Source: a virus
Virus record (IMG/VR): IMGVR_UViG_3300033153_013649
Span: 1-64,000 of that record
Strand: one strand, 5' to 3'
Length of the DNA: 64,000 nucleotides
The notes under the pieces were generated by a model. That model did no database searches. It was not told the DNA's origin and saw only the letters and a list, made by a program, of their open reading frames with translations. Shown here one piece after another: positions 52,984-57,999 of the stretch. How positions within the stretch are numbered: the stretch's first letter is position 1; each line of letters begins with the position of its first letter. Made by a program: the position numbers and the translations under genes.

Positions 52984-53090
52984 ACTAAAATCTATCCAAT
53001 GAAATACATTTAAATAAAAACTAAAATCTATCCAATGAAATACATTTAAATAAAAACTAAAATCTATCCAATGAAATACATTTAAATAAA
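52984..53090 (+). repeat. Three tandem 36-bp iterons
   Basis: Units at 52984-53019, 53020-53055 and 53056-53090 begin ACTAAAATCTATCCAATG and are identical, the last lacking only its final base. They are direct, without spacers, and lie just upstream of the topoisomerase promoter. Confidence 0.95.
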
Positions 53091-53113
53091 GTATAAAAAT
53101 TTAAAAAAAAGTG

Positions 53114-53142
53114 TTGACTTTTAATTTCTTTATTAGTATATT
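53114..53142 (+). promoter_or_regulatory. Sigma70-type promoter for topoisomerase
   Basis: TTGACT, 17-base spacer, TATATT, 24 bases after the last iteron. A good AAGGGA ribosome site lies before the ATG at 53167. Confidence 0.75.
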
Positions 53143-53166
53143 AGTTATAAGGGATTGGAAAATTAA

Positions 53167-54759
53167 ATGAGCCAAATGAAACAAAATAACTTTAAAGTTT
53201 TAAATGAAGTAGAAGCAGTACACCTAAGACCCGAAATTCTACTTGGTACTACAGAAGTCATAAAAAAGTCTTTCCTGATTTATAACCCTAAAACTGAAGA
53301 ATATGATTCTATTGAATTTGATTATTCGGAGGGATTTTTTCGCTTATTCGAAGAGGCGGTAACTAATTCAATAGATGAGTTTGATAGAAATAAATCCGTC
53401 TCCTCAATACGAATTGAGATCGGGGATGACTTTATTAAAATTCGAGATAATGGTGGGGGATATCCTCTTCATAAATATAAATTTGAGGGGAAAGAAAAAT
53501 ATGCTCCTGAATGGATATTAACTAAATTGAATTCAGGGGTAAATTTTGAGGATATAGATCGTAATACTGTTGGTATGAACGGAGTTGGAATTTCCCTTGT
53601 TAATTTTCTTTCAAAGAAATTTATTCTTCGAACAAAAAACAAAAAATCTCTTAGATATGTCCAAATATTTCGTGACTATTCTAAGAAGAAAACTGAACCA
53701 AAATTTAATGGGAAGGTTTCAGACCATCAATTCGATGGAACAGAAATTATTTTTTATCCTGATTTTGAATTATTTAGATTAGATAAATCTATTCTTAAAG
53801 ATTATATTCCTTTGATGGAAGAATATTTTAGAAAACTTTCTATGGTTTATCCTAAAATCAAATTTTATTTTAATAAAAAAAGGATTAAAACAAGTCAGAA
53901 ACAGACTATTAAAGCTCTTATTAATGGAAATATAATTTATAAAGAAATTACAGATAGCGCTACTATTGCCTTCGGTCTTAGAAGAGATGAGTCAGGGCAA
54001 GATTTCTTTATGATAAATTCGAAACCTATTGAGAGCTGGACGTCTTTTGATATGCCTTTTACATATAACTTATTTAATAATATTAGGGAAAAATTAAATA
54101 AGAAATATAAGCTTAAGATTTCGAGGAATACCTGGTTAAATGAGAATATTACGAGAGTTGGAATATTCAAAGGCCTAAATGTTAAATTTAAAAATCAAAC
54201 AAAGGATATTCTTGCTAGATTTGATTCCTCTGATTATCTCTCGTTTGCTTCGAAAGAAAATATTGAAAGAATAGCTCGAGCCTTTATTAATAATCAAAAA
54301 TTTGTTGAAGCTTATCTTGAATTTCATGCTTCTAAAGATAATCTTGAAGCTAAGAAAAAATTAAAGAAGATAAAAAAACAATTTATTGATAAATTAATAG
54401 AGGCTACCTCAAAAGATCCAGAGGAAAAAATCTTGATAATAACAGAAGGAAATTGTTTAGAAGAAAATACTGAAGTATTAGTTTTAAATCATAATAAATT
54501 ATTTAATAAAAAGATAAAAGAAATTAATATTGGGGATATAGTTTTAACACATAAGAAAAGATTTAAAAAAGTTATTAATAAAGTAGCTAGGAAAAAAAGA
54601 GGTTTTTTAGTAAAATTAAAAAACGGGGAACAATTTATAGCTTCTTCTGATCATAAAATGTATGTTTTTAACAGTTTAAAGAAGGAATTCGAATTTAAAA
54701 AAATAAAGGATCTAAATTTAGATTATGATAAATTGGTTAAACATAATGAATTATTATAA
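53167..54759 (+). CDS. gp39: Type II topoisomerase GyrB-like subunit, N-extein plus split-intein N half
   Basis: A 530-residue protein. Residues 1-429 are the topoisomerase ATPase subunit: FEEAVTNSIDEFDRN (62-75) and IRDNGGGYP (92-100) bind ATP-Mg, and VGMNGVGISLVN (135-146) is the lid motif; KILIITEGN reaches the TOPRIM EGDSA-like motif. At C430 the sequence switches to intein block A (CLEENTEVLVLNHNK), followed by INIGDIVLTHKK and block B GEQFIASSDHKMYV, and stops at 530. The rest of the extein is in the gene at 56006. After trans-splicing a 598-residue subunit would form. T4 also has this subunit broken (gp39/gp60), though without an intein. Confidence 0.9.
   Translation: MSQMKQNNFKVLNEVEAVHLRPEILLGTTEVIKKSFLIYNPKTEEYDSIEFDYSEGFFRLFEEAVTNSIDEFDRNKSVSSIRIEIGDDFIKIRDNGGGYPLHKYKFEGKEKYAPEWILTKLNSGVNFEDIDRNTVGMNGVGISLVNFLSKKFILRTKNKKSLRYVQIFRDYSKKKTEPKFNGKVSDHQFDGTEIIFYPDFELFRLDKSILKDYIPLMEEYFRKLSMVYPKIKFYFNKKRIKTSQKQTIKALINGNIIYKEITDSATIAFGLRRDESGQDFFMINSKPIESWTSFDMPFTYNLFNNIREKLNKKYKLKISRNTWLNENITRVGIFKGLNVKFKNQTKDILARFDSSDYLSFASKENIERIARAFINNQKFVEAYLEFHASKDNLEAKKKLKKIKKQFIDKLIEATSKDPEEKILIITEGNCLEENTEVLVLNHNKLFNKKIKEINIGDIVLTHKKRFKKVINKVARKKRGFLVKLKNGEQFIASSDHKMYVFNSLKKEFEFKKIKDLNLDYDKLVKHNELL
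54454..54756 (+). other. Split intein, N-terminal half (IntN, 101 residues)
   Basis: IntN starts with nucleophile Cys at 54454 (C430), directly after EGN of the conserved TOPRIM motif. Block A (CLEENTEVLV) and block B (with S-S-D-H) are recognisable. The frame ends after LVKHNELL, without the C-terminal intein motifs. Confidence 0.87.
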
Positions 54760-54837
54760 CGTTGCCTCCCTCAGCTCATATTAAAAAACTTAGATTTAAT
54801 AAATAATATTAAGAATATGAAGATCGAGGGAATTAAA

Positions 54838-56013
54838 ATGAAGGATAAATTTAAAATAGTAATTAAAACTGATAAAATGAAAAAGTATATTCATGAATAT
54901 ATGAAATATGAAATGATAAATAACAACCATTTTTCAATTATAGGTTTACTTAAAAATCATATTCATAAAACTAAAGGAATTTCTTTGGAAGAGTATTTAT
55001 CTAAGCAAAATAAAATTCGCAAGTGTAATTTCTGTAATAATTTTAGTAAAATTGTTGGATTTTCTTTCGATTCTTTTAAATCAGGAACATTATTTATTTC
55101 AAATATAAAATATAAAAAAAATTTTTATTATTGCTATAGTAAGGATTGTCCCGGAAAGAAATTAAATCCTAATAGTGTTGAATTTGTTTCTAAATCTAGA
55201 AATATTTCAAACGAAGAAGCTTTGAAATATATTCATAGGAGAAATAAATCCCCCTTTTATAGAGAAAACCATAATTCTTTAAAAGAATATAAATCTTATC
55301 AAAGACGAGATGAAAAATGGTTTATTGAAAATAATAAATCTTTTGATAAATTCAAAAAGAGATTAAGATATATTAATACTTTAGATTATTTTATTGAAAA
55401 ATTAGGTAGTAAAGAATTAGGATTAGCGAAATATTTAGAAATAAATAAAAGAAAAGATTCAATGTCATTTAATCATTATTTGAAGAAATATAATAATAAT
55501 TATATTGTAGCGAGAAAAGAATATAATAAAAGAATAAAAAAATGCTGTTCTAATTTATCTCCTTTTATTTGTAACGGGGTTTCAAAAGAATCTATTAAGG
55601 TATTATTAAAATATTATAAATTTTTTAGAAGACAGAATATTGATAAGGATAAAATATTTATAGGATTAAAGGGGAGTTCAGAATATAATATTTTATATAA
55701 AACCAAGGAGGGAAATAAAAGATTTTTTTATGACTTTACAATACCTGAAATAAAATTAATAATAGAATATCACGGAGAGAAATTTCACCCAAATCCTAAA
55801 TGGAGATTTGAAAATATAAACAAGTGGAATAAATGGAGGGGGATATTTGATAATTTAAATGTCGAGAAAAGGTATAAATTAGATTTACTAAAGAAAAAAG
55901 AAGCTGAAAAATCTGGCTTTAAAGTTTTTGAAATATATTCTTCTGATAATAAAGAAGAAAAATATGAGGAAATTATTAATTGGTGGTATTTAAAGGAAAA
56001 CAAAAATGAATAA
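54838..56013 (+). CDS. Vsr-like homing endonuclease between the intein halves
   Basis: A 391-residue endonuclease. A zinc-like cluster (C63, C66, C99, C104) lies in the N-terminal part, and a Vsr-like nuclease core in the C-terminal part: FFYDFTIPEIKLIIEYHGEK followed by FHPNP (D299, E310, H317; E282 in SSEYNILY may be the first acidic residue), then EAEKSGFKVFEIYSSD. ATG 54838 is chosen because GAGGGA lies 7 bases before it; ATG 54817 upstream is in frame but overlaps that site. Its end overlaps the C-extein half-gene (ATGAATAA), so the two are coupled. It is unlike the endonucleases at 3804 and 17477 outside the nuclease core. Confidence 0.82.
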   Translation: MKDKFKIVIKTDKMKKYIHEYMKYEMINNNHFSIIGLLKNHIHKTKGISLEEYLSKQNKIRKCNFCNNFSKIVGFSFDSFKSGTLFISNIKYKKNFYYCYSKDCPGKKLNPNSVEFVSKSRNISNEEALKYIHRRNKSPFYRENHNSLKEYKSYQRRDEKWFIENNKSFDKFKKRLRYINTLDYFIEKLGSKELGLAKYLEINKRKDSMSFNHYLKKYNNNYIVARKEYNKRIKKCCSNLSPFICNGVSKESIKVLLKYYKFFRRQNIDKDKIFIGLKGSSEYNILYKTKEGNKRFFYDFTIPEIKLIIEYHGEKFHPNPKWRFENINKWNKWRGIFDNLNVEKRYKLDLLKKKEAEKSGFKVFEIYSSDNKEEKYEEIINWWYLKENKNE

Positions 56014-56131
56014 TAATTTTAAATTATTAGAAATCGACTCAATAGAAGAGATAGAAGAAGTTGAAATGATAGATCTATCTGTTCAAAAAGATGAAAGTTT
56101 TACTTTATCGAATGGTTTAATTTCTCATAAT
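56006..56131 (+). other. Split intein, C-terminal half (IntC, 42 residues)
   Basis: The 42-residue IntC ends HN immediately before Ser (codon at 56132). The length and motif order match those of known split inteins such as gp41-1 type. Confidence 0.87.
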
Positions 56132-56641
56132 TCGGCGGCTGGAGCATTTAGAAATGTTCGTAATAGTAAAATTCATTCTATATTACCTCTTAAAGGTAAA
56201 GTTCCAAATGTTAAGAAATTAACTCTAAAAGAAGTTTTAAAAAATCCTTCCTATCAAAATATTATCGGGTCACTCAGATTAACAGGTGATAATTCAGATT
56301 TAAGACACGGTAAAGTTTATATCGCAACAGATACAGATCCAGACGGGAAACATATTCGAATTCTTTTAATTCAATTTTTTGCAAAATTCTTTCCTGAATT
56401 TATTGATGAAGGTAGATTGTTTATTTTAAATTCTCCTTTGTATGAATATAAATTAAACAAAACTTTGAAATATTCTTATGGGGAGAAACCCCCTCCAGAA
56501 GCTACTGATATTAGTTATTTTAAAGGATTAGGTTCGAATACTAAAACTGCTAATAAAGAGATTATGGAAAATCCTAAGCTCTTATTAATAAAAGATTCCA
56601 AAGAATTAAAGAAAATATATAGAGAACTTTATGATTATTAA
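56006..56641 (+). CDS. gp60: Type II topoisomerase GyrB-like subunit, split-intein C half plus C-extein
   Basis: A 211-residue protein. Residues 1-42 are IntC, with block F MIDLSVQKDESFTLSNGLIS and the terminal His41-Asn42. Residue 43 is the +1 Ser, followed by AAGAFRNVRNSKIHSILPLK, which continues the EGDSA...ILPLRGK TOPRIM motif; DTDPDG at 109-114 supplies the metal ligands. The C-extein of 169 residues ends with YFKGLGSNTK (the G-L-G-x motif near the subunit end). It corresponds in part to the separately encoded T4 gp60. Its start overlaps the endonuclease stop. Confidence 0.9.
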   Translation: MNNNFKLLEIDSIEEIEEVEMIDLSVQKDESFTLSNGLISHNSAAGAFRNVRNSKIHSILPLKGKVPNVKKLTLKEVLKNPSYQNIIGSLRLTGDNSDLRHGKVYIATDTDPDGKHIRILLIQFFAKFFPEFIDEGRLFILNSPLYEYKLNKTLKYSYGEKPPPEATDISYFKGLGSNTKTANKEIMENPKLLLIKDSKELKKIYRELYDY

Positions 56642-56664
56642 TTGGGAAATAATCAAAAAATATA

Positions 56665-56694
56665 TTGACAAACAAGAATAAAAATTTGTATATT
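56665..56694 (+). promoter_or_regulatory. Sigma70-type promoter for gp52-like gene
   Basis: TTGACA, 18-base spacer, TATATT, 27 bases before the ATG. Confidence 0.8.
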
Positions 56695-56721
56695 ATAATA
56701 ATATAAATTTTAGAGAAAAAA

Positions 56722-57999
56722 ATGGAAGAAATAAAAAGGTGGTATAAAGAATACGAAATTAAAACTGTATTTGATCGAGCTGTACCTTCGATTATGGATG
56801 GTTTTAAACCGGTTCAAAGAAAGATTTTTTATACTGCTCTTAGTAGGCTTAAAAGTAAAATGAATACAAACGCCTTTAGTGGGGCAGTAAAAGAATATTC
56901 TAATTATCATCACGGTGATATGTCGATTGTTGCTACAGTTAATAATATGGTAGCTGAATTTAGAAATAATTTTCCTATATTTTTAGGGTATGGGAATTTT
57001 GGAGATAAATTAGAACATACTCCCGCAGCCGCACGATATACAGAAATTTCTTTGAATCCAGAATATTTGAAATATATGGTAATGAATGAAATATTGGAAT
57101 ATGAAATTCAAGACGATAATAAAATACATGAACCAAATTATTATCTTTTTACTCTTCCAATGGTTCTTATAAATGGAACCAGAGGTATAGCAGTTGGAAT
57201 GAAAACGGATATTCTTCCATATAAACTTTCTGATATTAAAAGAAACGTAAAACAGGTAATTAATAATAAGAAACAAACCCCTCTTATTCCTTTCTTTCCT
57301 CAATTTAAAGGTAAGGTAAAAAGAGAAAATTCTAAATGGGTTCAATATGGAAATATTGAACTAGAAAATTCTACTACTATTAAAATAACTGAATTAACAA
57401 CTAATTATGAAAGTGTTAAATATCTTCAAGTATTAGAAGAGTTAAAAGAAAATAAAGTCATTTATGATTATGAAGATAATTCTTCAGATAAAGTAGAGAT
57501 CGTTGCTAAAGTTACTAAAGAAGTATCTAAAAAAATTAGAAACAAGCTTCATAAAACTTTCAAATTAGTTTATAATCTTCAAGAAAATATTAAAGTACTT
57601 GATCCTTCCGGAACTAAGGTTTTAGAATTTAATACCCCAGAAGAATTAATTGAAACTTTTGTTCTAGAAGTTCTTAAAAAATGTGATAGATATAGAATTG
57701 AAAAAATGAAGGAATATGAAAAAACAATTGATAAATTAATTCAGAAGATTAAATTTATTAAATTCGTTTCTTGTATTAATAATATTACAGATCTTTCTAG
57801 AAAAGAATTAAAGAGGTTAGTTCTGGAAAAAATAAAGATCGATAGGAAATATCTTGATGAATTTTTACAAATTTCTATATTCGGTTTAACCAAAGATTCA
57901 GTAAAGAAATACGAAAAAGAAATTAAAGAATTCAAAATTAAATTAAATAAATTTAAAAGAATGAATAAAAACGATATATATTTAGGGATGATTATATGA
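56722..57999 (+). CDS. gp52: Type II topoisomerase GyrA-like subunit, T4 gp52-like
   Basis: A 425-residue DNA-cleaving subunit (T4 gp52 is 442). The winged-helix active site is complete: FDRAVPSIMDGFKPVQRKIFY (17-37, described in part), NYHHGDMSIV (61-70), GNFGDKLEHTPAAARYTE with the catalytic Tyr106, and the PMVLINGTRGIAVGMKT strand near 147. The C-terminal coiled coil (about 330-415) ends in charged helices. It joins with the trans-spliced GyrB-like product. It has its own early promoter and overlaps the gp33-like gene by four bases. Confidence 0.9.
   Translation: MEEIKRWYKEYEIKTVFDRAVPSIMDGFKPVQRKIFYTALSRLKSKMNTNAFSGAVKEYSNYHHGDMSIVATVNNMVAEFRNNFPIFLGYGNFGDKLEHTPAAARYTEISLNPEYLKYMVMNEILEYEIQDDNKIHEPNYYLFTLPMVLINGTRGIAVGMKTDILPYKLSDIKRNVKQVINNKKQTPLIPFFPQFKGKVKRENSKWVQYGNIELENSTTIKITELTTNYESVKYLQVLEELKENKVIYDYEDNSSDKVEIVAKVTKEVSKKIRNKLHKTFKLVYNLQENIKVLDPSGTKVLEFNTPEELIETFVLEVLKKCDRYRIEKMKEYEKTIDKLIQKIKFIKFVSCINNITDLSRKELKRLVLEKIKIDRKYLDEFLQISIFGLTKDSVKKYEKEIKEFKIKLNKFKRMNKNDIYLGMII

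Follow-up and report, generated by a model that had tools for sequence, protein, structure and literature searches.

A predicted split intein and Vsr-like homing endonuclease gene in a viral type II topoisomerase large-subunit gene

The DNA analyzed here (the window, 64,000 nucleotides) comprises positions 1 to 64,000 of the 159,837-base IMG/VR virus record IMGVR_UViG_3300033153_013649. In the window the gene for a type II topoisomerase large subunit is broken into two open reading frames (ORFs), ORF1 (53167-54759, 530 residues) and ORF3 (56006-56641, 211 residues), with ORF2 (54817-56013) between them, all on the + strand. The break is very probably due to a selfish composite element, a split intein plus the gene of an EDxHD/Vsr-like homing endonuclease, the intein halves of which would trans-splice to give a 598-residue subunit. 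The ORF coordinates, frames and sequences in a preliminary description made from the letters of the window alone all proved accurate.

Results

Two ORFs encode one topoisomerase large subunit

The first 429 residues of ORF1 (the N-extein, 53167-54453) contain the GHKL ATPase domain, the transducer and the start of the TOPRIM domain as far as EGN, and residues 2-429 match phrog_543 (topoisomerase II large subunit) over profile columns 21-445 with E=2.9e-69. The last 169 residues of ORF3 (the C-extein, 56132-56638) start with Ser-Ala-Ala-Gly and supply the rest of TOPRIM plus the C-terminal part (phrog_543 E=4.7e-43; Toprim E=4.5e-9). The ORF3 match, columns 445-624, resumes exactly at the column where that of ORF1 stops, with no residue missing or repeated. 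When joined at EGN/SAAG, as the preliminary description had proposed, the exteins total 598 residues (429+169) and align without gaps to the large subunits of the intein-free LR745206, LR756501 and pT24. Judged from these alignments the insertion is precise, the joined exteins being equal to the uninterrupted protein.

The assignment to phage type II topoisomerases is given by HATPase_c, Toprim and phrog_543 together with an intact partner subunit (GyrA-like, T4 gp52-like) encoded downstream at 56722-57996 (PF00521 E=8.4e-74; phrog_551 E=1.1e-105). The whole 159,837-base record has no second or intact copy of the large subunit; an intact intein-less copy elsewhere in the genome was what the preliminary description had held to speak against its reading.

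Intein halves at the break

After EGN, ORF1 continues for 101 residues, from Cys1 (54454-54456) to the stop codon, as a putative intein N half (IntN, 54454-54756; block-B His67 at 54652-54654), whereas ORF3 opens with a putative 42-residue C half (IntC, 56006-56131) that ends in Ser-His-Asn before the Ser of the C-extein. All of the splicing residues are present: Cys1 and the block-B His in IntN, the penultimate His and terminal Asn in IntC, and Ser+1.

Searches of both halves with intein profiles, a check suggested in the preliminary description, gave matches of differing strength. TIGR01443 (intein_Cterm) scored 18.3 bits on ORF3, over its cut-off of 15.6, and the region also matched positions 118-155 of 155 of Pfam Intein_splicing. 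TIGR01445 (intein_Nterm) matched ORF1 from residue 430 with E=0.0039 and, in a search of the virus record itself, matched over its full length (1-83 of 83) with E=2.3e-5, but the 22.9 bits are under the cut-off of 24.5. In the PDB the window IntN alone matched the gp41-1 intein with E=0.0047, and an N-half family profile (the window plus 12 relatives) matched it with E=1.5e-7, other inteins and hedgehog Hint domains giving weaker matches. The matches of intein models to both halves, the family profile and the full set of catalytic residues argue for a split intein, as first proposed. Charge complementarity of the halves (+11/-8 in the window) is not used as evidence because it is not upheld across the family.

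The same fracture in other viruses

An uncultured phage of 462 kb, LR756500.1, has the same three-part fracture at the same residue. Scans of IMG/VR with hand-made codon patterns gave 14 further loci (L014, L015, L016, L017, L018, L022, L029, L037, L045, L048, L052, L053, L058 and L063). Searches for close relatives by single-protein and alignment back-translation found none. As L016/L018 and L037/L058 are near-copies, the 15 further loci represent 13 distinct cases, or 14 with the window. Contig ends leave L014 without its C half and L022 without its N half. Every C half (15/15) ends in [IV]SHN/SA, N halves start with Cys in 14 of 15 cases, and in the complete cases the two halves are always separate ORFs. 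Recurrence of the three-part arrangement at one residue in 15 other loci, 13 of them distinct, indicates that the layout is not due to chance. The N half lacking Cys1 is that of L048 (4317-4319, - strand), which starts with Thr (EGD/TIHEDE) next to a canonical C half; this intein may be inactive or may use an unusual nucleophile.

The N halves of the relatives are long: 14 of 15 have 162-170 residues, the exception being the 101-residue half of the window. In the set examined (LR756500, which is L002, plus L014-L017, L029, L037, L045, L048, L052, L053 and L063) the block-B Hint subdomain occurs twice in every relative, a tandem duplication detected by profile-profile comparison with a probability of 97.5% (score 59; the highest score among 40 column shuffles was 12.7). 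The window N half has a single copy, as does gp41-1. An AlphaFold2 model of the long N half matched Hint and intein folds weakly.

Intein-free and fractured genes are interleaved

The intein-free homologues read without gaps through the site (FEGD-SAAG in LR745206, TEGD-SAAS in LR756501 and FEGL-SAGN in pT24). In the C-terminal extein LR745206 is 68% identical to the fractured L053, and LR756501 is 66% identical to the fractured L058. On an extein tree intein-free and fractured relatives are interleaved, and the no-intein state requires five changes, at least four of which are forced by supported branches. Such a patchy distribution is consistent with an element that is mobile or has been lost repeatedly. 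The branch of the window is long and its placement unsure. A gyrB intein allele exists (PMC4071816); the pattern HN-SAGGSAKQ, which would mark a cis GyrB intein at this position in a cellular genome, gave no match in genome contigs.

A predicted endonuclease with a seemingly exchangeable catalytic part

ORF2 encodes 398 residues from 54817. The likelier start is an ATG at 54838, where the ribosome-binding site is better and the product has 391 residues. The 391-residue product (54838-56010) is a predicted homing endonuclease. Its EDxHD/Vsr-like core lies at 55582-56010, with Glu at 55681-55683, Asp at 55732-55734 and His at 55786-55788, and in an alignment of 11 nuclease cores including that of the window these three residues (E34, D51 and H69) are invariant. 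In the PDB the core profile had three Vsr entries (E=0.015-0.02) and then I-Bth0305I as its top four matches. The AlphaFold2 model of the protein has a mean pLDDT (predicted local distance difference test) of 76.7, with most of the core above 85, and its best fold match is Vsr (1vsr, probability 0.98, E=0.07), with I-Bth0305I at rank 7. These tests of sequence and model are modest singly but agree, and the Vsr-like assignment made in the preliminary description is a reasonable one at that strength. A Pfam match to RST (E=2.9e-5, just above cut-off) was rejected as chance, since RST is a plant domain and only 32 residues were matched.

Family members of differing catalytic type have in common the N-terminal endonuclease region with CxxC...C...C, NPNSxEF and NKSPFY. 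Alignment of the window and LR756500 proteins (E=6e-25) is confined to the N-terminal ~200 residues. An EDxHD part follows in the window, L017, L022, L037/L058, L045 and L053, and an HNH-like part in LR756500, L014 and L016/L018; in L029 and L048 it is of a third type (D...EIAG). Note that the HNH-like relatives had no match in Pfam or the PDB, so that their assignment is by motif and phrog_5104 (unknown function) only. We infer one recognition module combined with exchangeable cutters.

Two of the relatives, L015 and L063, have no endonuclease although the gene is still split, and L052 has a nuclease remnant. Such cases are what would be expected if the element had decayed, with an intein that still splices beside an inactive endonuclease (or the reverse) and no current homing. 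For the window we consider this unlikely, as its endonuclease ORF is intact and retains the catalytic Glu, Asp and His.

Other fractured genes

The record of the window has three IntN/IntC pairs and no more, each in a replication or nucleotide gene. The gp41-like helicase gene (90016-91854 of the record) consists of two ORFs with split-intein halves at TSE/SIG, 60 bases apart and without an endonuclease; the penultimate residue of its C half is Lys rather than His, and its IntN and that of the topoisomerase are only ~29% identical. The class II ribonucleotide reductase gene (118600-121711 of the record) has a split intein at TNP/CGE and a different, PD-(D/E)XK-like endonuclease in the interval, with a C half that seemingly starts at TTG.

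The GyrA-like subunit is also fractured by split inteins, at YHHGD/S, in LR756500 (L002:7888-10610), in L018:2-1841 and in the record of L045 (L075:971-3720), with EDxHD or HNH-like endonucleases. Among isolates, Campylobacter phages CP21 and F379 and Tenacibaculum phage PTm1 (L003, L004 and L068) have a fractured family-B DNA polymerase gene with a Vsr-like endonuclease between the pieces, so that the layout invoked in the preliminary description is seen again in cultured phages; the F379 endonuclease ORF looks truncated. 

Two further arrangements were seen. In the record of L053 (L076:53-7187) one nrdA gene seems to have three successive breaks made by intein halves, the endonuclease genes between the pieces being, in order, EDxHD, GIY-YIG-like and EDxHD. 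At L012:6237-7670, in the record of the window, an ORF with a TTG start joins a GIY-YIG-like N-terminal region with NUMOD-like repeats, in frame, to an unrelated phage protein. Directly upstream of the window topoisomerase gene are three perfect 36-base tandem repeats (52984-53090) found nowhere else in the record.

Discussion

Class 1 trans-splicing and EDxHD homing are established for these protein families, and from the anatomy of the locus we infer the following course of splicing, coupling, cleavage and homing. The element would occupy the codon boundary EG(N/D/L) / Ser-Ala in the TOPRIM domain. The subunit would be translated as two proteins, 429 residues plus the 101-residue IntN and the 42-residue IntC plus 169 residues, and these would associate through their intein parts. 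Translation of the C half is probably coupled to that of the endonuclease gene, the stop of which its ORF overlaps by 8 bases; overlaps of 8-11 bases are also found in LR756500, L017, L037 and L058. Splicing would then proceed by an N-S shift at Cys1, transfer to Ser+1, Asn cyclization and an O-N shift, and the 598-residue product would work with the intact GyrA-like partner encoded at 56722. In co-infecting relatives with an uninterrupted topoisomerase gene, the EDxHD/Vsr-like protein would cut that gene near the insertion site, and during repair IntN, the endonuclease gene and IntC would be copied as one unit. The TOPRIM residues at the site are near-invariant, so that the target should be highly conserved and imprecise loss lethal.

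Several observations weigh against this picture. The single-sequence match of the window IntN is weak (E ~0.004 versus both the PDB and NCBIfam), and block F of the window intein is without its usual His (DESF). The Vsr match of the nuclease-core profile has an E-value no better than 0.015, and for the fold match of the whole model it is 0.07. Not every member of the family need be active, since L048 has Thr for Cys1. Finally, the best extein identity to the window copy is 29%, and without a closer relative its recent mobility cannot be shown.

A gene can also work in pieces. A mobA-type insertion has left T4 with a large subunit that functions as two polypeptides (PMC2988022), and the window subunit could, like T4 gp39/gp60 or the NrdA of Aeromonas phage Aeh1, assemble non-covalently, its intein-like ends being relics. 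The record of L029 does have such a second break: its large subunit is in three pieces (L074:76-2178), and the second break has a tail like the T4 gp39 C-terminus (VNEND...ING), another EDxHD endonuclease and then a further frame disruption. The preliminary description had the T4 breakpoint recurring at the window site, a claim that does not hold. T4 gp39 contains EGDSA and runs 99 residues past the Asp-Ser boundary, and the T4 break is therefore a different event. A search for a Hint relic in the gp39 tail found no Hint match in Pfam, and that idea was dropped. Moreover, the splicing residues are kept in at least 13 deeply diverged relatives, whereas relics would decay, and at a break inside TOPRIM, adjoining the EG(D/N) catalytic Glu, loose tails of 101 and 42 residues should interfere with the active site. 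Assembly without splicing is thus very improbable. That the block is a self-splicing intron removed from the RNA is hardly credible: phage introns too can carry Vsr/EDxHD endonucleases (PMC12350094), but an Rfam scan of 53000-57000 found no intron match up to E=5, the intron boundaries would have to encode intein blocks by accident, each half has its own stop or start, and conservation in the relatives is at the protein level.

The window and its relatives may belong to an undescribed split-intein family that targets topoisomerase, with one site-recognition domain, interchangeable catalytic domains (EDxHD, HNH-like and EIAG-type) and an ancestral N half with a duplicated Hint subdomain, in which one virus needs at least three correctly pairing split inteins for its topoisomerase, helicase and ribonucleotide reductase. 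We rate the chances of this broader proposal as even. The preliminary description knew of no topoisomerase example; none was found in the literature searched, though the loci of the original 2009 study of fractured genes may include one. The layout itself is known, and it is the family-level features that may be new.

The fractured-gene layout is here extended to an essential topoisomerase. At one site there is a comparative series, from intein-free genes through split inteins with several endonuclease types to genes in which the endonuclease is reduced or gone, which allows tests of endonuclease invasion and exit of inteins and of the fixation of split inteins. The loci also provide about a dozen predicted natural split-intein pairs of use in protein engineering, and three pairs within one virus must avoid cross-reaction. 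The related layouts in the isolated phages CP21 and PTm1 offer a bench-ready comparison.

Among solved structures the gp41-1 split intein (PDB 6QAZ/6RIZ) is the best relative of the window N half. It shares the canonical split position, Cys1, Ser+1 and similar half sizes, but has another host protein and insertion site. Vsr (1VSR) and I-Bth0305I (3R3P) share the catalytic core with Asp, His and the surrounding secondary structure; in contrast to them the window protein has an extra ~245-residue N-terminal cysteine-bearing region, which is common to relatives with another nuclease type. T4 gp39/mobA/gp60 resembles the window in the subunit broken and the nearby homing endonuclease gene, but has no intein and is broken downstream of EGD. 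The split-intein family-B polymerase of MIJ3, which has an endonuclease (PMC6892783), and those of PTm1 and CP21 have the same three-part layout, in a DNA polymerase rather than a topoisomerase gene, and for PTm1 and CP21 the relationship extends to the sequences of the endonucleases.

The closest parallel is with the fractured genes that Dassa et al. reportedly described in 2009 (doi 10.1093/nar/gkp095; cited in PMC12350094 and PMC6892783), in which a split intein breaks a conserved enzyme and a free-standing Vsr-type endonuclease gene lies between the intein halves. The window locus likewise encodes a conserved enzyme by two ORFs that carry split-intein halves where the gene is broken, with a free-standing endonuclease gene between them. 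It differs in that the host gene is that of the type II topoisomerase large subunit and in that its same-site relatives swap the catalytic domain and duplicate the Hint subdomain in IntN.

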